Of a DNA stretch of 43,040 nt, positions 15,656-27,408 are shown one piece after another. Under the pieces are notes generated by a model, which saw nothing but the letters and a program-made list of their open reading frames with translations, did not search any database and had not been told where the DNA came from. Position 1 is the first letter of the stretch, and each line of letters opens with the position of its first letter. The stretch comes from Gammaproteobacteria bacterium (GTDB lineage Bacteria; Pseudomonadota; Gammaproteobacteria; Steroidobacterales; PWYM01), in the NCBI GenBank assembly GCA_007693855.1, contig RECU01000024.1, positions 1 through 43,040 on the forward strand, written 5' to 3'. The position numbers and the translations under genes were made by a program.

Positions 15656-17893
15656 ATGGCGAATGACAGCATCACGGGAACCCACCGATGGACGTTCTTT
15701 CGCTCCGGGGGCTTCGACCAGGTCGCCCTCGACAGCGGCGAGGACCTGCGTCATCTCGGCGAGCTCGACCCGAAGCTCTGGAGCGTCCTGAACTGTCCCA
15801 CCACAGGGCTCGAGTTCGATCCCCGCACGGCGGCCCTGCTGGACGCGGATGGTGACGGTCAGATCCGGGTGCCGGAGATCCAGGCGGCCGTGCGCTGGGC
15901 GTGCGAGCGGGTGACCGATCCGGCGGTGATGTTCGCCGACGGGGGGCTGCCGGTCAGCGCCATTGCCGAGGACAGCGAGGAGGCGGCTCGCCTCAAGGCG
16001 GCTGCCGTCAAGGTGCTGAGCTATGTCGGCAAGGCCGAGGACCAGGCCCTGACCGTGGACGATTTCGCCGACATGACCAGGCTGTTTTCGGTCGATCACT
16101 TCAACGGCGACGGGGTGGTCCCCGGTGGTCTGACCAGCGACGAGGCCCTGCAGCAGCTCATCGGCGAGATTGTCGAGACCCAGGGCGGTGTGCCGGATCG
16201 CAGTGGTGAGCCCGGGGTGTCGGCCGATACCGTTGCGGCTTTTTTCGAGCAGGCCCAGGCCGTGCTGGATTGGCACGCCGCCGCCGCCGCGGATACCGAT
16301 GGGGTCCGTCCTTTGGGCGAGGCGACGGATGCGGCTGCCAAGCTGTTCGACAGCGTTCGCGCCAAGGTCGATGACTACTTCGCGCGCTGCCGGCTGGCGG
16401 CCTTCGATGCGCGGGCGACTGCGGCGTTGAACCCTGCGGAGAGCGTCTATGGCGCGCTGTCGGCTCGGGCCATCGCGGCCGGTGACGAGGAGGTTGCCGC
16501 GCTGCCGCTGGCCGCGATCGAGGCCGGCCAGCCGCTGCCGCTGATCGAGGGCCTCAATCCTGCCTGGGCCGACGCGATCGCGAGCTTGCGGGAAGAGGTC
16601 GTCGTGCCGCTGCTCGGGGAGCGCGATGCGCTGTTGCCGGAAGACTGGGCGGCGCTGTCGGCACGGTTTACCGCCTGGCAGAGCTGGCAGGCGGCCCGCC
16701 CGGACACCGCCGTGCACGGCATCGATGGCGCGCGCCTGCGTGAGCTGGTCGACGGCGACCTCCGCGCTCGCCTGGCCGCGCTGATCGAGCAGGACCTCGC
16801 CGCCGAGACCTCGGCAGCGACGGTCGATGCGGTGGAACGGCTGGTGCGCTACCAGCGTGACCTGGTCACTCTGCTGCGCAACTTCGTGACGCTGAGTGAC
16901 TTTTACCGCGGTGATCGCAAGGCGATTTTCCAGGCCGGTACGCTGTATCTCGACCAGCGCAGCTGCGAACTGGTCATGCGGGTCAGCGACATGGGGCGAC
17001 ATGCGAGCATGGCGCCGTTCAGCGGCTGCTACCTGCTCTATTGCACCTGCGTGCGCCAGGGCGAGGCACCGATCACCATTGTCGCCGGCCTGACCGGTGG
17101 CGAGGTTGACGAGCTGATGGTGCCGGGCCGCAACGGCGTGTTCTACGACCGCGCCGGGCGCGACTGGAAGGCCTCGGTGGTGAAGGTGGTCGAGCAGCCG
17201 GTGAGTATCCGTCAGGCGTTCTGGTCGCCATACCGGCGGCTGGGGCGGTTCATCGAGGGCCAGCTGCAGAAGTTCGCCGCCTCGCGCGACAAGGCGGTCG
17301 AGGCCCAGACCAGCGCCGGCGTGACCGACGCGGCGGCCAGTGCCGGCAGCGGCCAGACGGCGGCCGCGCAGGCCTTCGACATCGCCAAGTTCGCCGGTAT
17401 CTTCGCGGCCATCGGTCTGGCCATCGGCGCGATCGGCACGGCGCTGGCGGCCGTGGTGGCGGGCATGTTCTCGCTGCCGTTGTGGCAGGTGCCGTTGGTC
17501 ATCCTCGGCGTCATGCTGCTGATCTCGGCCCCCTCGATGCTGATGGCCTTCCTGACGCTGCGCCGCCGCAACCTCGGGCCGTTGCTCGACGCGAATGGCT
17601 GGGCGGTCAACGTGCGCGCGAGGATCAACGTCCCCTTCGGCGCCGCCCTGACGGGTCTGGCTACGCTGCCGGCCGGCGCCAGCCGCTTACTGCGCGATCC
17701 GTACGCCGAGAAGAAGCGGCCGTGGAAGACCTGGCTGTTCCTGCTGGCGGTGCTGATCGTCGCGCTGGTGCTGTGGCGCGAGGGCGTGTTCGATGGCTTG
17801 TGGGGTGGCGGGGGTGAGGCGGACGTCGATCCTGCCGCTGCGGTGGAGCCCGCGCTCGAGGCGCCGCCTGGGGAGCCGCCGGCGGCGCCCTAG
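15656..17893 (+). CDS. EF-hand membrane protein of unknown function
   Basis: A 745-residue protein. There is no signal peptide. One canonical EF-hand loop is present (DADGDGQIRVPE, residues 63-74), with a second weaker calcium-type segment (FSVDHFNGDGVVPGG, near 145). A long helical middle follows with few landmarks. Near the C terminus are a hydrophobic pair (FAGIFAAIGLAIGAIGTALAAVVAGMF and VPLVILGVMLLISAPSMLMAFL, about 579-636), a third membrane span (WLFLLAVLIVALVLW, about 693-707) and an acidic/Pro tail. So the bulk is probably cytoplasmic and tethered to the membrane. ATG 15656 follows AAAGGA; an upstream ATG at 15572 lies in the promoter. It is divergent from phnD. I do not recognise a characterised family. 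Confidence 0.75.
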   Translation: MANDSITGTHRWTFFRSGGFDQVALDSGEDLRHLGELDPKLWSVLNCPTTGLEFDPRTAALLDADGDGQIRVPEIQAAVRWACERVTDPAVMFADGGLPVSAIAEDSEEAARLKAAAVKVLSYVGKAEDQALTVDDFADMTRLFSVDHFNGDGVVPGGLTSDEALQQLIGEIVETQGGVPDRSGEPGVSADTVAAFFEQAQAVLDWHAAAAADTDGVRPLGEATDAAAKLFDSVRAKVDDYFARCRLAAFDARATAALNPAESVYGALSARAIAAGDEEVAALPLAAIEAGQPLPLIEGLNPAWADAIASLREEVVVPLLGERDALLPEDWAALSARFTAWQSWQAARPDTAVHGIDGARLRELVDGDLRARLAALIEQDLAAETSAATVDAVERLVRYQRDLVTLLRNFVTLSDFYRGDRKAIFQAGTLYLDQRSCELVMRVSDMGRHASMAPFSGCYLLYCTCVRQGEAPITIVAGLTGGEVDELMVPGRNGVFYDRAGRDWKASVVKVVEQPVSIRQAFWSPYRRLGRFIEGQLQKFAASRDKAVEAQTSAGVTDAAASAGSGQTAAAQAFDIAKFAGIFAAIGLAIGAIGTALAAVVAGMFSLPLWQVPLVILGVMLLISAPSMLMAFLTLRRRNLGPLLDANGWAVNVRARINVPFGAALTGLATLPAGASRLLRDPYAEKKRPWKTWLFLLAVLIVALVLWREGVFDGLWGGGGEADVDPAAAVEPALEAPPGEPPAAP

Positions 17894-17915
17894 CGGGTCG
17901 TCCCAGGGCTCGAGC

Positions 17916-17987
17916 CTACAGCAGCGCCAGGGCCGCGCGGCTCTTGGAACCGCGGGGGTTGTGATAGATGCGGGCGGGCTGGAACAT
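17916..17987 (-). pseudogene. arsC remnant: 5' end of an arsenate reductase-like gene, active-site Cys lost
   Basis: A 23-codon frame (ATG 17987 to TAG 17916) reads IYHNPRGSKSRAALALL after MFQPAR. Thioredoxin-fold ArsC/YfgD proteins begin IYHNPRCSKSR with the catalytic Cys at the position here occupied by Gly. A Shine-Dalgarno GGAGAG lies about 8 bases upstream, so the original 5' end is intact, but the match stops at the TAG and the following bases encode nothing ArsC-like. The fragment is too short to be an enzyme. It lies directly behind the EF-hand gene on the opposite strand. The similarity covers only 17 residues but includes the family's most specific motif. Confidence 0.65.
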
Positions 17988-18175
17988 CGTGATCTCTCCA
18001 GAGACGGCGCTTCGGTCCGCGAAAAGCGGTGCTATTGTCGCTTATGCGGCTGGGGCCGGACAGCCTGAATGATCGTTTGCCGATGCATCTCGCGCCCCGC
18101 GCAGGGCTGGCAAGTTGTGCGGTCTGGTGTGACTCAATGACTATCGAGCCAGCTAGAGATATGAGCGATCCAGTC

Positions 18176-18427
18176 ATGAAGTTCGTTGCGCTCTACGAAG
18201 CGAAAAACCGTCTCTCCGAGCTGGTCGCGATGGTCGAGCGGGGCGAGGAGGTGGCAATCACCCGCCGCGGCGTGCCAGTCGCGCGCCTGGTCGCCTGCGA
18301 GGACGAGGAGGCCGTCGATCCGCACCAGCGTACCGATGCTGCGCTCTCGCGCCTCAGGGTGCTGCGCGAAGAGATTCGTCTTGATGGAGACCTGAAAACG
18401 CTGGCCCGCGAAGGCCTGGACGAATGA
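18176..18427 (+). CDS. Phd/YefM-type antitoxin
   Basis: An 83-residue protein: KFVALYEAKNRLSELVAMVERGEEVAITRRGVPVARLV is the DNA-binding Phd/YefM domain, followed by a charged toxin-binding tail (RVLREEIRLDGDLKTLAREGLDE). The start at ATG 18176 fits the family best; ATG 18161 is also in frame. The stop overlaps the ATG of a PIN-domain remnant (ATGA), the normal antitoxin-toxin coupling. Since that toxin is truncated, the antitoxin is now effectively solitary and could act only as a repressor or as a decoy for related toxins. Confidence 0.8.
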   Translation: MKFVALYEAKNRLSELVAMVERGEEVAITRRGVPVARLVACEDEEAVDPHQRTDAALSRLRVLREEIRLDGDLKTLAREGLDE

Positions 18428-18513
18428 GCTTCGTGCTCAACAACTCGGTGCTGACCGGTTGGTTCGCGGCCAACCAGGCCGATGTTTATGGTGATGCGAT
18501 CGCCGCGCCCTAG
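18424..18513 (+). pseudogene. vapC remnant: PIN toxin cut to 29 codons with Asp-to-Asn change
   Basis: The frame starts MSFVLNNSVLTGWFAANQ, the N terminus of PIN toxins that pair with Phd antitoxins (normally MSFVLDNSV). The first catalytic Asp (residue 6) is Asn here. The frame then ends at TAG 18511-18513 after IAAP; a complete toxin has about 130 residues. The break coincides with the stop codon of the antisense coiled-coil gene at 18510 and with the 11-bp repeat, so the loss looks like a recombination junction rather than a simple point mutation. Confidence 0.8.
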
Positions 18514-19409
18514 CGATCCTCCATCTGGCGAGGCTGGATCTGCGCCTGGCGTTCTTCCTCGTGACGTTCGGCCATCTGCACCGACTGCTGGCGGAAGACC
18601 TCTTCCTGGCGCTCGACGAGTTTGCCGATCTCCGCCTCCGGCCTGTTGAGCGCCTGCTGGGATTCCACCAGCTCGGTGCGTAACTGCTCCTGCTGCTGCG
18701 AGAGGTCGACGATTTCCTGGCGCTGTCGCTGCTGCAGTTCGGCCATCGGGTCGGGTGGCTCGGGCGCCGGTGCGGCTCCCGGGGGCGAGCGCTCCGGTTC
18801 GGGCGTGGGTGGCACGGGCGTGTCGGGCCCAGCCGCCGTGTAGCCGGGCACGACGGCCTCGGCCGCGCGGCCCACCCACTCGTTCACCCTGTCGACGGTG
18901 CCGGCGATGCTGACGGCAGCGTCATCCAGCGCCTTTGGATGCATCTCGGCAGCGGTCTTCGCCGCGTCGACCGCCAGCCGCGCAGCCTCGGCGACCTCTG
19001 ACACAGGCACGCCCTTGGTGGTGGTGCTGAGTGTCAGATCGACCACGTCGATCACCTTGTGGGCGGCCGCATGCGCCCTTTCTTCCCAGCTGGGTGGCTC
19101 CGGGGCGCGAAGGTCCTGCTCCAGGCTGTGGTTCCGGTCCTCGCCATGCCGGGCGACAATCTGGGCCTTGTGATCGTCCAGCGCCTGCTCCGTCGCCATC
19201 ACCCGGGTTTCCGCTGCGGATACCTCCGACCTGAGCTCATCGATCCGCTGGGCCTTCTGCTCCAGGGGTTCATTCCAGTGCGTCTGCTGTCCGTTGTCCA
19301 GGTCGCTGCGGGCCTGCTCCAGCGTCTCGCGCGCCTGCGCCACGGCCGCCTGCAGGATCTTGCGCTCGTCGAGTTGTAGCGCGTAAACAGCTTTCTCGTG
19401 TTCGTCCAC
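18510..19409 (-). CDS. Coiled-coil protein downstream of the coupling protein (conjugation-associated?)
   Basis: A 299-residue soluble protein with no signal peptide or membrane span. Residues 1-80 and 215-299 are charged, Gln/Glu-rich heptad-like helices (for example RQRQEIVDLSQQQEQLRTEL). Between them is an Ala-rich helical part (AAHKVIDVVDLTLSTTTKGVPVSEVAEAARLAVDAAK), then a Pro-rich linker (PVPPTPEPERSPPGAAPAPEPPDP). It starts 13 bases after the coupling-protein stop on the same strand, so they are likely one operon. The layout resembles accessory or C-terminal regions of mobilisation proteins, but no relaxase motif is visible. I do not recognise the family. Confidence 0.6.
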   Translation of the reverse strand: MDEHEKAVYALQLDERKILQAAVAQARETLEQARSDLDNGQQTHWNEPLEQKAQRIDELRSEVSAAETRVMATEQALDDHKAQIVARHGEDRNHSLEQDLRAPEPPSWEERAHAAAHKVIDVVDLTLSTTTKGVPVSEVAEAARLAVDAAKTAAEMHPKALDDAAVSIAGTVDRVNEWVGRAAEAVVPGYTAAGPDTPVPPTPEPERSPPGAAPAPEPPDPMAELQQRQRQEIVDLSQQQEQLRTELVESQQALNRPEAEIGKLVERQEEVFRQQSVQMAERHEEERQAQIQPRQMEDR

Positions 19410-19422
19410 GGCGGGCCTCGTC

Positions 19423-21489
19423 TCAGAGACTGCCCATGCGGGCGCTCAGGGCTTCGTCCTGCCAGGCAAAGTGCTTCTTCAGCCGCAGCGGCTTGCAGCC
19501 CGAGGCCATGACGATGACGTTGTCACGGAACTCCGGGCCTGCGAGGACTGCGGGCTCGACCACGGCCTGGCGGCTGCGGTCCATCACGCCCTCCTGTATG
19601 CCGATGTCCTCGGAGATCTTCTTCGCCGTCTCGTCGTGCAGGCTGGGGTTCATGTACATGCGCACGGCGCAGGAGCCGATCATGCCGTCGGCGTTCTCGT
19701 AGGCCGTGCGCAGCTGGCCGATGCTCTGGGTGAACATCCACAGCTTGATGCCGTACTGGCGGCCGATCTCCAGCGCTTCCTCCACCGGTGGCATCTGCCG
19801 CAGCCGTGGCAGCTCATCCAGCAGGAACAGGATGGGCGACTGGCCGCGTGGCGGGAGCTCTGTGGTCAGTTGTCGGATGTGCTGGGCGATGAACACGCGC
19901 AGCACGGAGATGTAGCTCTCGACCTCGTTGGGGGACAGGCAGATGTAGATCGTCGGGTTGTCGCCCTTGCGCAGGTCCAGCGGCGTCCAGTCGGAGCGCC
20001 GCGTGGCCCGTTCGATGCGATCGCCGTCCCAGGCCGAGAGGCTCGAGAGCCCGGTCTGCAGCACGCCGTCGCGGGTCTTGGGTTCCATGCCGGCCAGCGA
20101 ATGTCCCGCACGGGTCATCGAGCGGAGGTCGACGCGTGCCTGCAGTGCGGTGACGAACTCGTTCCAGCCGACGCCATGGAAGACGTCGATGACGGAGCCG
20201 AGCGGGCGCTTCTCCGGGTCGTCCTGCAGGCAGACCCGGGCGATGGCGGCCGTGAGCACGTCGCGTGCGCGGTTCTCCCAGAACGGATCCTTGCCGCCCG
20301 AGGGCACCATCATCATGTCGGCCAGGAAGCGGGAGTCTTCCCACAGGTAATCCGGGTGGGAGCGCACGGTGGTCAGGGGGTTGTAGTGGTGGCTGTTGTC
20401 GGGATTCAGCGGTGAAAACTTGTAGACCGGCCCTACGTTCTCCGAACGCCACTTGCTCGTGCCCTCGTAGATTTCACCCTTGACGTCGAGGATGACCGCT
20501 GGCCCCGGCCAGCTGAGCAGCGTTGGGAATACATGGCATTGCGTCTTGCCAGAACCCGGTGGGGCCACGGTGATCATCGAGCCCTCGCCCGCGTAGCGCA
20601 CCATGCGGCCCGATTCCGGGAAGTCGCCGAGCAGTGCGCCGGGCACGGCTTCGAGTGTGAAGGGCGTGTCGTCGATCTCGTCCTCGTCGAGCCAGGTGTC
20701 ACCGCCGTGGATACGCTTCTGGACCTTCTGGACAGCCTTCGGAAGCTGCTCCTTCGGGATCTGCTCGAGGACGCCGAACATCGCGTTCACGGCCCCCTCG
20801 ACCGTTGCGTCGGCCTGTCCGCAGTAGAGCCGTACCGCATCCGCGCCGCTTTTCACCTGCGAGAGCAGTTCCTTGGTCAGGAAGACATCCCACTCGTCCA
20901 CCGAGCCCTTGCCGTCACCGAAGATAAGGGCGGTCCGGTAGTACTGCCACGCCGGCTCCTCGAAGATGTCGGCGTTGTAGAGATGGTAGGCAATTCGGAG
21001 AATCTCGCGTTCCCGGGGTTCCATGGCCGAGAGGCTGCGACTGACCCGGAACTGGATATGGCAGAACTCAGGTTCGGTTCGCGTGCCTCCACCGTGCATC
21101 GGCTTTTCGACGGTGTCTTCGAAGTCCACTCGCTGGCCGACGCTCAACACCGCCTTCTGCCCGTCGAACAATGCATCGATGGCCGCAGCGCGCTCCCTCG
21201 GGTCGCTGCCGAGACTGGCCCAATGCGCGCGGTCCGGCGCGGCGACCTGGCCGGCCCGCGCCCGCGACATGCGTTCGCCGAGCTTTTTCCGACCGATGAC
21301 CGCGCCGGCGAAGAATGCCCAGCCGATCAGCGCGCCAAGCAGCGGCTCGTCGCCGAAGACTGCCAGCAGCGTGTAGATGACCATGAATAACGCCAGAAGC
21401 ATCAGCACGACCACCATGACTTTCTGCACAACGCGCTGTCCCATGTTCAGCAGGCTGTTGGTGATAAGGGCACTCATCGTGTTGGCCAT
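19423..21489 (-). CDS. Type IV secretion coupling protein (VirD4/TraG/TraD family)
   Basis: A 688-residue membrane ATPase. Two N-terminal spans (VMVVVLMLLALFMVIYTLLAVF, about 24-45, and LLGALIGWAFFAGAVIG, about 50-66) anchor it. Walker A is VAPPGSGKTQ (309-317), followed by AVILDVKGEIYEGTSKWR and VYKFSPLNPDNSHHYNPL; Walker B is ILFLLDELPRL, with FTQSIGQLRTAYE and RMYMNPSLHDETAKKISEDIG after it. These are the motifs of coupling proteins that feed DNA or protein substrates into type IV secretion channels. GGGGAGGA precedes ATG 21489. No relaxase, VirB or pilus genes are nearby, so it is either an orphan from a decayed conjugative element or serves a system elsewhere. Confidence 0.9.
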   Translation of the reverse strand: MANTMSALITNSLLNMGQRVVQKVMVVVLMLLALFMVIYTLLAVFGDEPLLGALIGWAFFAGAVIGRKKLGERMSRARAGQVAAPDRAHWASLGSDPRERAAAIDALFDGQKAVLSVGQRVDFEDTVEKPMHGGGTRTEPEFCHIQFRVSRSLSAMEPREREILRIAYHLYNADIFEEPAWQYYRTALIFGDGKGSVDEWDVFLTKELLSQVKSGADAVRLYCGQADATVEGAVNAMFGVLEQIPKEQLPKAVQKVQKRIHGGDTWLDEDEIDDTPFTLEAVPGALLGDFPESGRMVRYAGEGSMITVAPPGSGKTQCHVFPTLLSWPGPAVILDVKGEIYEGTSKWRSENVGPVYKFSPLNPDNSHHYNPLTTVRSHPDYLWEDSRFLADMMMVPSGGKDPFWENRARDVLTAAIARVCLQDDPEKRPLGSVIDVFHGVGWNEFVTALQARVDLRSMTRAGHSLAGMEPKTRDGVLQTGLSSLSAWDGDRIERATRRSDWTPLDLRKGDNPTIYICLSPNEVESYISVLRVFIAQHIRQLTTELPPRGQSPILFLLDELPRLRQMPPVEEALEIGRQYGIKLWMFTQSIGQLRTAYENADGMIGSCAVRMYMNPSLHDETAKKISEDIGIQEGVMDRSRQAVVEPAVLAGPEFRDNVIVMASGCKPLRLKKHFAWQDEALSARMGSL

Positions 21490-21514
21490 CGTGTCGTCCT
21501 CCCCATGTGACTGC

Positions 21515-21847
21515 TCAAGGCCTGCTTCGCTTCAGTACCAGGCCCATCGGCCCGTGGAGTTGATCGTCGTGTCGGGTCAGTACCAGCGTCCCCTGCGGCC
21601 CGCTGACCAGCACACGGTCCTGGTCCAGCCGGTACTCGGCCACCACGGTGGTGCCGAGCACCGAGATGTGGACCTGGCCCTGGCCGAAGAACTCGTAGCG
21701 GGTCATGCCCAGCTCGTCTTCATAGCGGCCGCGCAGCTCGTCGCGTCCGCAGGCGACCAGCACGAGCGAGGCGGTCAGCACCAGCATTGCGGTGGCATTG
21801 GCGCCAATGACGGTTCCCCTGGTGTTCACGACGCTCCCCCTTGCCAT
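21515..21847 (-). CDS. Small putative lipoprotein
   Basis: A 110-residue protein with an N-terminal hydrophobic segment ending in a lipobox (MLVLTASLVLVAC), then a small beta-rich domain (RYEDELGMTRYEFFGQGQVHISVLGTTVVAEYRLDQDRVLVSGPQGTLVLTRHDDQLHG). Entry-exclusion or outer-membrane lipoproteins of conjugative systems have this size and form, and it lies 25 bases upstream of the coupling protein on the same strand. The function is otherwise unknown. An internal ATG just before MLVLTAS could be the true start. Confidence 0.6.
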   Translation of the reverse strand: MARGSVVNTRGTVIGANATAMLVLTASLVLVACGRDELRGRYEDELGMTRYEFFGQGQVHISVLGTTVVAEYRLDQDRVLVSGPQGTLVLTRHDDQLHGPMGLVLKRSRP

Positions 21848-22069
21848 GTTGCCGCTGTGTCCCCGCGCTGGCGGGCGTCTGGGGTGGGCGGCTGCAGTGG
21901 CTTGTATGAATGCCCCATCGGCACCGCTGGCGCATCGACAGCTAGCGGGAGTTATTGAGGGTTAACGCAGGATAAGCCGCGGCGAACCTGAGCCCGGCCT
22001 GCGGCGTCCTGTGGTATACCTATGGGTCTAAGGTCCGCGACTGCGGGCGTCGCAAGGGGTGGCCCGGGG

Positions 22070-24166
22070 GTGGCAACCCGCAAGCGCAACCAGAATGGCA
22101 GCCGAAAGCGGGGCGTCCGCGCCTCTCGGGCTCGCCTGTATCACGCGCTGACCGAGGCCGGCTTCCGCAGCCAGGCCGCGCTCGCCGAGCGCATGGCCGA
22201 GCTCGAGGGTCTCGAGCAGGCCCCCAAGGACCTGGTCAACCGCGTGTTCCGCGAGCAACCGGTCGAGCTGCAGACACTCGAGCGGGTGGCCCGGGCATTG
22301 GGTGTCGAGGCCTGGGAGCTGTACCTGACCAGCGACGAGCCGCCGGAGGCGGTCGATCCGGCGCTTCGCCTTCCGCAGACCGCGACTCACCAGCCGCCGC
22401 CGTCCCCGCGGCGGCGCTCGCCGTCGGTGCCGCTGCTGATGGCGATCGGTCTGTTGGCGCTCACCGGGCTCGCCGGCGCAGTATGGTGGCTCACCCCTGG
22501 GGACGGTCCTTCAGGTGGCACGGGTGCTGACGGTGATGACCGGATGGTCTTCACGACGCCGAGCCCTGCCTGGCTGTCGCGGCCCACGCTGGTGGTCATG
22601 CCTACGTTCGACGAAGAAGAGGACGCGCTGACCGAGGCCTTGCGCGAGGCCCTGTCGCAGCACTTTCGGCTGGCGTCGCCCACGGCGGAGCTGCTGGCCC
22701 ACGGGCGGGAGGCGGGGGAGGTGGCGGCCCAGCTGGGCAGCGACGCGGTGGTTGAAGGCGAGATCGTCCGCGTGGGGCGTCTGGCCGGTGTGCGCATTCA
22801 CCTGTTCCGGGGCGGGGTTCGCCAGCAGGTGTGGGGGGAGACCGTCGACGTCGCGCGTCTGGACCACTTGCTGGCCGACGTGGCCACCAATGCGACGGCT
22901 GCGGTCGGCCGCGCACTGGGCCTGCCGGTGGGCGAGCCCATGGCGCACTATCCCTTGGCGCCGGTGCAGGACTATTACCTCGAGGGGCGACTGTACCTCG
23001 ACGGTCCGGCCAGTGAACTCAACATCCGGCGCGCCCAGGGACGCTTCGAGGCCACCCTGCGCCTGGACGCCAACTACGCGGATGCCCAGGCCGGGCTGTG
23101 CGAGGCGCTGCTGGAAGAGTACTGGATGGAGGACGCGCAACGTGCCCTGAACGATGCGTCGCTGGCCTGCAGTCGTGCGATCCAGCTGGCGCCGTGGGCG
23201 GCGAGCACCCGGATTGCCCATGCCCACCTGCTGCGGGTCACGGGCCGCGCCGACGAGGCCGTCGCGATCCTTGAGGACCTGCTGCTGGAGGATCCGGACG
23301 ACGCCGATGCACTGGTGGGCCTGGTGGCCAGCCGGCTGGCGCTGTATCGCGGCAGCGGCGAGGTCGCACAGCTCGAGCTCGCCCTGGCGGCCGCGCAGCA
23401 TGGCACGGCCGTCGATCCCGGGTTCTGGAAGCCGCCGTTCTGGCAGGCGAGCCTGGCCTATTTCGCCGGCGACCTGGCGGCCGCGATCGAGGCCGCCGAG
23501 GAGGCCCGGCGCCGCGACGAGAATGAATACGTGCTCGCCAATCTCGGCACCTTCTATTTCTGCGCCGAGGAGCTTGAGCGCGCCCGCGAAGTGTACGAGC
23601 GGGCCCGCGTCGTGGCCCCGCACTCCTATGTGGGCGACGAGTTTCTCAGCATCATCCATTACCTGACCGGTGAATTCGATATGGCCGCCGAGCTGCGTGC
23701 CCGGGCGATCGAGCGGTTGAGCGGGGCCGGCGAGCCGGAAATCCACGAGATGTGGGGCAACCTCGGCGACGCTTATCTCGCCAGCGGGCGGCGCGAGGCG
23801 GCAATCGAGGCCTATCAGCGTGCCGCCGAGATTACCGAGCGCGACGTGCTGCAGGGGATCGACTCGCCGGCCGATCGTGCGTCGCGGGCCTACTACTACA
23901 GCCGCCTGGCGAAGCTGGCGCCGGAGCGACTGCCCCCCGGGGCGACGGCCCGGATCGAGCGCGATCTGCGCGCCGCGCTGGACGAGCCGCTCGAGGCGGG
24001 GGCCGCAGTACGGGTGGCCAAGGCCTGGCTGCAGCGTGAGCGCCCGGAGCTCGCGCTGCGCGCCTTCGAGCAGGCGGTGGCGCGTTGCGGGGGCTACGCG
24101 AGCACGCCGGCGCTGGCGACCTTGCGCCCTATGCTCGGGACAGGTGAGCTCAGCGCTTCGCCGTGA
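22070..24166 (+). CDS. TPR-repeat membrane protein with helix-turn-helix-like N terminus
   Basis: A 698-residue protein. The N terminus is basic (ATRKRNQNGSRKRGVRASRARLYHAL) and followed by an HTH-like helical part (FRSQAALAERMAELEG...LVNRVFREQPVELQTLERVARALGVEAWELYL). One membrane span follows (VPLLMAIGLLALTGLAGAVWWL, about 120-141). Then comes a TolB/adenylate-cyclase-type domain (VVMPTFDEEEDALTEALREALSQHF...SDAVVEGEIVRVGRLAGVRIHLFRGG) and many TPR units (YADAQAGLCEALLEEY, AASTRIAHAHLLRVTGRADEAVAILEDLL, AYLASGRREAAIEAYQRAAEI). This CadC-like plan suggests a membrane-bound sensor-regulator. GTG 22070 is preferred (AAGGGG upstream); ATG 22022 is an alternative. Target genes are unknown. Confidence 0.7.
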   Translation: MATRKRNQNGSRKRGVRASRARLYHALTEAGFRSQAALAERMAELEGLEQAPKDLVNRVFREQPVELQTLERVARALGVEAWELYLTSDEPPEAVDPALRLPQTATHQPPPSPRRRSPSVPLLMAIGLLALTGLAGAVWWLTPGDGPSGGTGADGDDRMVFTTPSPAWLSRPTLVVMPTFDEEEDALTEALREALSQHFRLASPTAELLAHGREAGEVAAQLGSDAVVEGEIVRVGRLAGVRIHLFRGGVRQQVWGETVDVARLDHLLADVATNATAAVGRALGLPVGEPMAHYPLAPVQDYYLEGRLYLDGPASELNIRRAQGRFEATLRLDANYADAQAGLCEALLEEYWMEDAQRALNDASLACSRAIQLAPWAASTRIAHAHLLRVTGRADEAVAILEDLLLEDPDDADALVGLVASRLALYRGSGEVAQLELALAAAQHGTAVDPGFWKPPFWQASLAYFAGDLAAAIEAAEEARRRDENEYVLANLGTFYFCAEELERAREVYERARVVAPHSYVGDEFLSIIHYLTGEFDMAAELRARAIERLSGAGEPEIHEMWGNLGDAYLASGRREAAIEAYQRAAEITERDVLQGIDSPADRASRAYYYSRLAKLAPERLPPGATARIERDLRAALDEPLEAGAAVRVAKAWLQRERPELALRAFEQAVARCGGYASTPALATLRPMLGTGELSASP

Positions 24167-24211
24167 GTGTCCTCAGATGCCCCGGCCGGCCGCGCGAGCT
24201 TTACCTCAGGT

Positions 24212-25897
24212 TTAGCGCTCGAACTGTGGCGCCGGCTCGTCCAGCGCGCCGATGGGGTCGTCTGCGATGTCCGGTGCGACTTCGGCCAGCCGGCGGCGCC
24301 AGCCCTCGGGCAGGTCTTCCCAGCGGCTGCACTTGCGCCCCACCGAGCGTGAGGTGAGGGTGCCGGGTCGCTCGTCCATGTTCATCCAGCGCTGCCAGTC
24401 GGTGATCTCGCCGAAGAACACCGTGGCCTCGCCCATGGTCACGGCGGGGTCTGCGAGGTTGCGCAGGCTGCCGTGGTAGACGGCGATGTCGTTCACCTGG
24501 AACGGGCGCTCGCGCCCGGGCGTGAACACGCGGGCCACCGACTCGTCCTGCACGAACACGTCATCGTTGACGATCAGGGGCGGATGGGATTTCGCACTCG
24601 CCTCGAGTGGCGTGCCGCCGATGTCCGTTGGCAGGACCCGGGAGTTGTCCGGGCGATATCGCACCTTGAAAGGTCCGGCCGGGCGGAACCGTACGGGGAT
24701 CTCCTCGCCCGTGTAGGGATTGCGCCAGCTCTCCAGCGGCTCCCCGGTGTCCAGGTCGAACAGCAGCACCATCTCCAGCATGGTCATCTCGAGGCCGCCG
24801 TCCTGGAGCTGGCGGATGCGCTGCTTCTGGGTGCTGGCGATGGCGGTCAGGGTGTAGCCTGGCTGGATCTCCCAGTCCGCGCTGCCCGACAGGAGGTCGT
24901 GGTCCAGCAGCAGCTTGTGTTCGTCGAAGGGCAGGATGCCCAGCGACTGCTCCGGCAGTTCGTTGTTGATTGCGAACGGCCCGTCGGGCGTGCGCAGGGC
25001 GCCGCAGAAGGCGCGCCGTGCCTGCTCCAGGGTGAAGCCTTCAGGCAGCCCGAAGAGGGGGCGCGGCTGGAACCCGGGGAACGGTCCGCAGTTGTGCTCG
25101 TCGGAGCGGGCGATCAGGACGCTCGCCGCCGGCCCGTCCTTGTCGCGGCGCACCGAGTACCGCACTCTGGCCGAGAACTGGTCGGCCGGCGTGAAGGAGA
25201 GCGACCCGGCATAGAAGCGTTGGCGCGACTGGCCCAGGCGGCCGCCGAATTCGTTGGCGTAGAAGCCGTCGAAGTCACTGTAGTCGGCGACCAGGCGCCC
25301 GGCCAGCAGCCCCTCGAGCAGCGGGCCCTCGACCGAGCCGCTGATCCGCCGGTCGCCGTAGGAGCCCCCGGTCGCGCTGACGCGGCCGAGGAACTCGTCA
25401 CCCGGCGTGGTGGTGATCATGCTGATGGCACCGCCGAAGGTGGCGCGGCCGAACAGTGCGGACTGCGGCCCCTTGATCACCTCGACCCGCGCCAGGTCCT
25501 CCGTGCCCACGCCGGCCGGGTTGCCGATGTAGGGGACACCGTCGATGAACACGGTGACCAGGTCGCGCCGGTTGTCGCCGGGCGCTGAGCTCTGGGTCAT
25601 CCCGCGGATCGAGAAGTCGCTGGAGAAGCGCGCGTTGCCCTGGTTGTAGGTCAACCCCGGCGTGAACTTCGAGAGCTCCGGCAGATTGGTGATGCCGCGC
25701 TGCTCAAGCTGCTCGCTGCTGAACACCTGGACAGTGAGCGGAATCTCCTGGATCGACTCCTCACGCTTGCGGGCAGTGACCACGATTTCGTCCAGCAGCG
25801 AGCTCGCGCGCTCGCCTGTCTGGGCATGTGAGATGGCGGGGGCGGCCATCGCAGGGGCCAGAACGAGGCAGGCGATAGGCATCCGATATCCGTGCAT
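24212..25897 (-). CDS. Chimeric protein: TonB receptor plug and partial barrel fused to a DUF1838-like domain
   Basis: A 561-residue protein. Residues 1-368 are a TonB-dependent receptor: signal peptide, [15 protein letters not shown] box, plug (LTVQVFSSEQLEQRGI, VEVIKGPQSALFGRATFGGAISMI) and the first barrel strands. From about residue 369 (base 24793 downward) the sequence changes to the pattern of DUF1838 proteins: VLLFDLDTGEPLESWRNPYTGE, a VNDDVFV strand, VNDIAVYHGSLRNLADP, ITDWQRWMNMDERPGTL and a DDPIGALDEP tail. There is no C-terminal barrel signature. GGAGG nine bases before ATG 25897 fixes the start. An in-frame deletion joining two adjacent genes would explain it. The receptor function is probably lost; DUF1838 has no known activity to my knowledge. 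Confidence 0.65.
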   Translation of the reverse strand: MHGYRMPIACLVLAPAMAAPAISHAQTGERASSLLDEIVVTARKREESIQEIPLTVQVFSSEQLEQRGITNLPELSKFTPGLTYNQGNARFSSDFSIRGMTQSSAPGDNRRDLVTVFIDGVPYIGNPAGVGTEDLARVEVIKGPQSALFGRATFGGAISMITTTPGDEFLGRVSATGGSYGDRRISGSVEGPLLEGLLAGRLVADYSDFDGFYANEFGGRLGQSRQRFYAGSLSFTPADQFSARVRYSVRRDKDGPAASVLIARSDEHNCGPFPGFQPRPLFGLPEGFTLEQARRAFCGALRTPDGPFAINNELPEQSLGILPFDEHKLLLDHDLLSGSADWEIQPGYTLTAIASTQKQRIRQLQDGGLEMTMLEMVLLFDLDTGEPLESWRNPYTGEEIPVRFRPAGPFKVRYRPDNSRVLPTDIGGTPLEASAKSHPPLIVNDDVFVQDESVARVFTPGRERPFQVNDIAVYHGSLRNLADPAVTMGEATVFFGEITDWQRWMNMDERPGTLTSRSVGRKCSRWEDLPEGWRRRLAEVAPDIADDPIGALDEPAPQFER

Positions 25898-27003: not shown

Positions 27004-27237
27004 TTACTGCATCGGCTGCCACGGGGCATCGACTGGCGAGATGATGTCGTTCTCGTGCAGCACGCTGCCGGCCAGCGCGCCGAACAGCTCGCCGGGCGGC
27101 GGCATGGGCACCAGTTGGGCGACTGGCTTGCCATGCTTGGTGATGATCAGTGGCTCGCGGGTGTCTGCCACCTCATCGAGCAATTTGAGGCAGCGCGATT
27201 TGAACTCGCCGGCGCCGATCTGTTTGCTGTCTGTCAC
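27004..27237 (-). CDS. Orphan Phd/YefM-type antitoxin
   Basis: A 77-residue protein: SKQIGAGEFKSRCLKLLDEVADTREPLIITKHGKPVAQLVPM is the Phd/YefM DNA-binding domain, then a tail typical for VapC-neutralising members (LFGALAGSVLHENDIISPVDAPW). GTG 27237 is chosen because GAGGG stands 7 bases upstream; an ATG at 27279 would place the start inside the operator. In intact loci a PIN toxin follows at once, but the 78 bases between this stop and the SnoaL-like gene contain no such frame. It is therefore a solitary antitoxin. Confidence 0.8.
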   Translation of the reverse strand: MTDSKQIGAGEFKSRCLKLLDEVADTREPLIITKHGKPVAQLVPMPPPGELFGALAGSVLHENDIISPVDAPWQPMQ

Positions 27238-27254
27238 TGGTTGACCCTCGATAC

Positions 27255-27277
27255 GACTATGGTCACAAGCTATAGTC
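27255..27277 (-). promoter_or_regulatory. Inverted repeat upstream of the orphan Phd antitoxin
   Basis: GACTAT (27255-27260) and ATAGTC (27272-27277) are perfect inverted arms 11 bases apart, 18 bases upstream of the GTG start. Phd-type antitoxins bind such sites to repress themselves, and the AT-rich arms overlap the likely -10 region. Confidence 0.45.
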
Positions 27278-27408
27278 ATTTTTTTCCCCTGATGTGGCGG
27301 TTGCCACTCCCACGCTATCCGGCGGTGGCCGCCTGGGCCAGCGGCGTTTCCCGGTGACTGCGCCGCAATCCATCATCCACCCCGGCCGCGCCGGCGTATT
27401 GCCTTGGC

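Follow-up and report, generated by a model that had tools for sequence, protein, structure and literature searches.

TonB-dependent receptors, recognized by a plug domain (PF07715) and a barrel domain (PF00593), require a complete 22-strand barrel around the plug. DUF1838 proteins (PF08894) are almost unmentioned in the open literature that we searched, where the single paper to mention them concerns a Streptomyces antibiotic cluster, and no solved structure related to the DUF1838 protein was found. In the window (the whole stretch of 43,040 nucleotides that was analyzed), a single reverse-strand open reading frame begins as the first family and ends as the second. The features referred to below are as follows.

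24212 to 25897, reverse strand: chimeric open reading frame of 561 amino acids, frame open, with Plug and DUF1838 Pfam matches
24824 to 25897, reverse strand: 5' part of a TonB-dependent receptor (signal peptide, TonB box DEIVVTARK, plug, and early barrel), assigned by identity to an intact congener receptor
25427 to 25753, reverse strand: plug domain (Plug Pfam coordinates)
24805 to 24823, reverse strand: junction zone, a short stretch in which the two parents resemble each other, from a codon comparison with both
24212 to 24823, reverse strand: 3' part of a DUF1838 gene (residues 85 to 287 of the intact congener protein), assigned by nucleotide identity to the congener gene
24242 to 24826, reverse strand: PF08894 match (Pfam)
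22022 to 24166, forward strand: TPR protein (Pfam TPR) flanking the DUF1838 gene here and in the congener G001 (78% nucleotide identity to locus L049, 6857 to 9057)
26215 to 26925, forward strand: SnoaL-like exported protein (Pfam SnoaL_2), divergent upstream neighbor of the fusion, with homologs on contigs C70 and C225 of the congener G002

The chimeric frame runs from 25897 down to 24212 with no stop or frameshift across its 561 codons, and a Shine-Dalgarno-like GGAGGAAC lies immediately 5' of its ATG. Residues 49 to 157 matched Plug PF07715 (E value, 1.7e-20; 74 bits) and residues 358 to 550 matched DUF1838 PF08894 (E value, 3.5e-12; 47.1 bits), the curated Pfam cut-offs being 23.9 and 25 bits, respectively; the DUF1838 half scored by itself still reached 45.2 bits against PF08894. 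Both matches support the proposal of the sequence-only reading that the N-terminal part of a TonB receptor is joined to a DUF1838-like C-terminal part, and its recognition of DUF1838 was correct. The same reading had the barrel closure strands missing, which is confirmed by the barrel model PF00593, for which the Pfam search gave no match in the chimeric frame but a match at residues 319 to 750 of the intact congener receptor.

This intact receptor, a protein of 795 amino acids on contig C172 of G002, is 62% identical to residues 7 to 366 of the fusion. The receptor half corresponds to residues up to about 370 of this protein; the C-terminal stretch of roughly 420 residues, with the closing strands, is absent, leaving under half of the 22-strand barrel. 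No close copy of the missing half was found elsewhere in the fusion's genome, where the best relative is 35% identical.

The intact relatives of the DUF1838 half are found in the same two congeners. G001, recorded as a gammaproteobacterial MAG (isolate T3Sed10_171R1) of the same genus as the fusion genome, has on contig C19 (PWZL01000082.1) an intact DUF1838 gene of 287 amino acids that is ca. 90% identical at the protein level to fusion residues 340 to 561, with 91.4% DNA identity between window positions 24205 to 24823 and the gene (L049, 9819 to 10437). It is the positional ortholog, because it adjoins the same TPR gene and the same upstream genes (window 15774 to 21767). The N terminus of the TPR protein looks by eye like a helix-turn-helix. 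In G001 the TPR gene and DUF1838 are separated by an additional toxin-antitoxin pair, and in the window a Phd/YefM-type antitoxin gene without an obvious adjacent toxin gene is found at 27004 to 27279 on the reverse strand; its G001 relative (L049, 9421 to 9706), located between the TPR gene and DUF1838, adjoins an open reading frame that by eye is PIN/VapC-like. In G002, contig C70 encodes an intact DUF1838 protein of 288 amino acids (71% identity).

The fusion aligns to these two proteins from about residue 68 to 85 of 287/288, and lacks the 82 to 83 residues that they have in front of the profile match. Relative to the G001 protein, the first 84 residues are missing, with its Tat-like signal (MELDRRSLLG...) and about 50 more. 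The PF08894 positions covered are nonetheless practically the same, 32 to 215 of 232 in the fusion and 31 to 217/218 in the intact sister proteins. A structure predicted for the intact DUF1838 protein with a six-row alignment was poor (mean pLDDT, 48) and placed strands at residues 59 to 69 and 72 to 89, which hints that strands near residues 59 to 89 may have been lost or cut in the fusion. Fusion residue 508 (window 24374 to 24376) is Asp, whereas Gly occupies this position in the two close DUF1838 relatives and in most of the other aligned proteins, so that the motif reads WMNM-D instead of WMNM-G. This substitution is possibly an early sign of relaxed constraint.

The in-frame join stands, but not its earlier placement near base 24793, since homology at the DNA level with the separate DUF1838 gene sets in ca. 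10 codons upstream, at 24823 (codon 359). The junction codons are CGC ATC CGC CAG CTC in the fusion, CGC ATC CGA CAG CTC in the DUF1838 parent, and GAA ATT CGC AGG CTC in the receptor parent. By this codon comparison, the likeness of the parents amounts to only a dozen or so bases, and because both are alike around 24805 to 24823, the exact breakpoint is blurred.

Within the DUF1838 part, 8 of 193 residues differ from the G001 protein (dN, 0.021; dS, 0.342; dN/dS, 0.06), and with G002 used for polarization, the fusion has 9 base changes of its own and G001 has 25. The receptor part had no excess of unique residues (27, versus 32 and 23). Judged by these comparisons, neither half has decayed, and the join must be recent, or under selection, or present only in the assembly. 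The pairwise figures cannot separate these three cases, since the sequences may have diverged for the most part before they were joined.

Regarding gene order, contig C172 of G002 carries the receptor, an opposite-strand LytTR gene, and a DUF1838 gene, with receptor and DUF1838 on the same strand. In G001 a LytTR gene precedes DUF1838 in divergent orientation, and the contig ends just past the LytTR start. The locus L048 (JAGRJB010000235.1) contains four DUF1838 genes, one LytTR gene, and one receptor, and in the fusion genome itself contig C49 carries a receptor, a beta-lactamase-like gene, and two DUF1838 genes, in that order, the receptor and DUF1838 again sharing a strand. Neither a LytTR gene of that group nor DNA of the lost stretch was found in the fusion genome, and the exact predeletion order was not found in any genome examined. 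The island that holds the fusion differs between congeners. On contig C70 of G002 the SnoaL gene directly adjoins the intact DUF1838 homolog, with no receptor between them; the receptor fragment may therefore instead have been translocated.

Searches for a second fusion were negative. No match spanned both halves among 59 relatives, a query made of the junction and the DUF1838 half matched only DUF1838 proteins in 369 genomes of the class, and no place in 72,556 plasmid records covered 80% of the fusion query. Among the DUF1838 matches listed for 296 genomes of the order, screened by open-frame length, the unusually long frames and two others of interest were inspected and none was a second fusion, and the collection scan returned only one relative of each half. 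Seven DUF1838 frames of relatives (including long ones of 468 to 1,481 amino acids) were considered as candidates and rejected as ordinary DUF1838 genes whose frames are spuriously prolonged on the upstream side in GC-rich sequence. The many full-length homologs in the same domain order that would have spoken against a recent deletion did not appear among the relatives, the class genomes, the plasmids, or the order matches listed.

Taken together, a recent deletion or rearrangement in one lineage probably fused a receptor gene in frame to a neighboring DUF1838 gene on the same strand. This reading is favored because the full-length parents are separate in congeners, no second fusion was found, and the lost parts are absent from the genome. 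The receptor gene would have been cut after about codon 358 and the DUF1838 gene before about codon 85, with loss of the remaining barrel, the DUF1838 export signal, and everything between. If receptor and DUF1838 were neighbors in the ancestral order, as we infer, a deletion that took the second half of the receptor gene, LytTR, and the beginning of DUF1838 would account for the missing parts. The position of the breakpoint within a few bases of parental similarity suggests illegitimate (microhomology-type) recombination. The receptor's signal is predicted to direct the product through Sec. The gene is most likely a nonfunctional chimera, since a 22-strand barrel should be unable to close and the start of the DUF1838 domain is lost; the likeliest product would be a misfolded, degraded periplasmic polypeptide, or none. 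Of the two possibilities raised by the sequence-only reading, an in-frame deletion between neighbors therefore holds up better than a novel fusion, which was found in one genome only, and we favor a chimeric gene from local rearrangement in one lineage over a new class of protein.

The main rival of a local rearrangement is an assembly chimera, in which the organism, or strains living alongside it, has both genes whole and the metagenome assembler left out what lies between. We regard it as unlikely, though a serious contender. The genome resembles a draft metagenome assembly (114 contigs), the fusion lies in the variable island, and the absence of decay in either half fits; moreover, any same-strand join has a one-in-three chance of being in frame, so the open frame is weak evidence of function. 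However, the dozen or so bases shared at the junction fall short of the k-mer lengths that assemblers normally use, neither lost half is on another contig of a genome estimated as 100% complete, and the join is internal to a 43-kb contig.

A real, selected fusion, in which the receptor front exports the DUF1838 domain and positions it at the outer membrane, coupling uptake with substrate processing, is improbable. The fully open frame of 561 codons, the low dN/dS of the DUF1838 part, and the neighborhoods shared by both families in the genus, as expected if they serve one pathway, would agree with it, but the low dN/dS can predate the join and only one genome has the fusion. Furthermore, no barrel can form once over half of its strands are missing, the DUF1838 protein has lost its first 84 residues, including roughly 30 Pfam positions and the first strands of the low-confidence model, and the fusion-specific G508D falls in an otherwise mostly conserved M-G motif. 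Least probable of all is a newborn expressed fusion whose truncated receptor front would re-route DUF1838 from Tat to Sec and tether it at the outer membrane.

Outside the fusion, DUF1838 genes formed tandem islands, with three or four copies within about 7 kb (L051, 914 to 6565; L048, 871 to 4834; L053, 637 to 7712). Their partners are TonB receptors, LytTR regulators, and SnoaL-like, alpha/beta-hydrolase, beta-lactamase-like, and DUF3604 genes, together with genes that by eye resemble sulfatase-modifying factors. The family is patchy in the order (93 of 296 genomes, some with 10 or more candidates each) and absent from 14 control genomes. Whether DUF1838 genes are enriched beside receptors across the genus was also considered, but ca. 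8 of ca. 33 genes in G000 to G002 lay <5 kb from a plug (by eye), a share that does not clearly exceed the receptor gene density, and no enrichment is claimed. The variable islands shared in this genus with receptors, LytTR, SnoaL-like genes, and hydrolases hint that DUF1838 may serve uptake or degradation pathways. The fusion matters little as a protein, and an annotation as a chimeric or truncated gene would suit it better than one as a TonB receptor or a novel architecture, but it has some use as a pointer to the surroundings of this uncharacterized family.

Compared with TonB-dependent receptors (PF07715 plus PF00593), the fusion has the signal peptide, TonB box, plug, and beginning of the barrel, but differs in having no PF00593 match and ca. 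420 C-terminal residues replaced. It resembles the DUF1838 family (PF08894) in its near-identical profile extent and ca. 90% identity to the G001 ortholog, and departs from it in lacking the ortholog's first 84 residues, Tat-like signal included, and in standing behind a receptor fragment. Like chimeric pseudogenes arising by deletion between neighbors, it combines truncated members of two neighboring-gene families in one frame and in a single lineage; unlike them, it is still open and undecayed and would be, if real, young.
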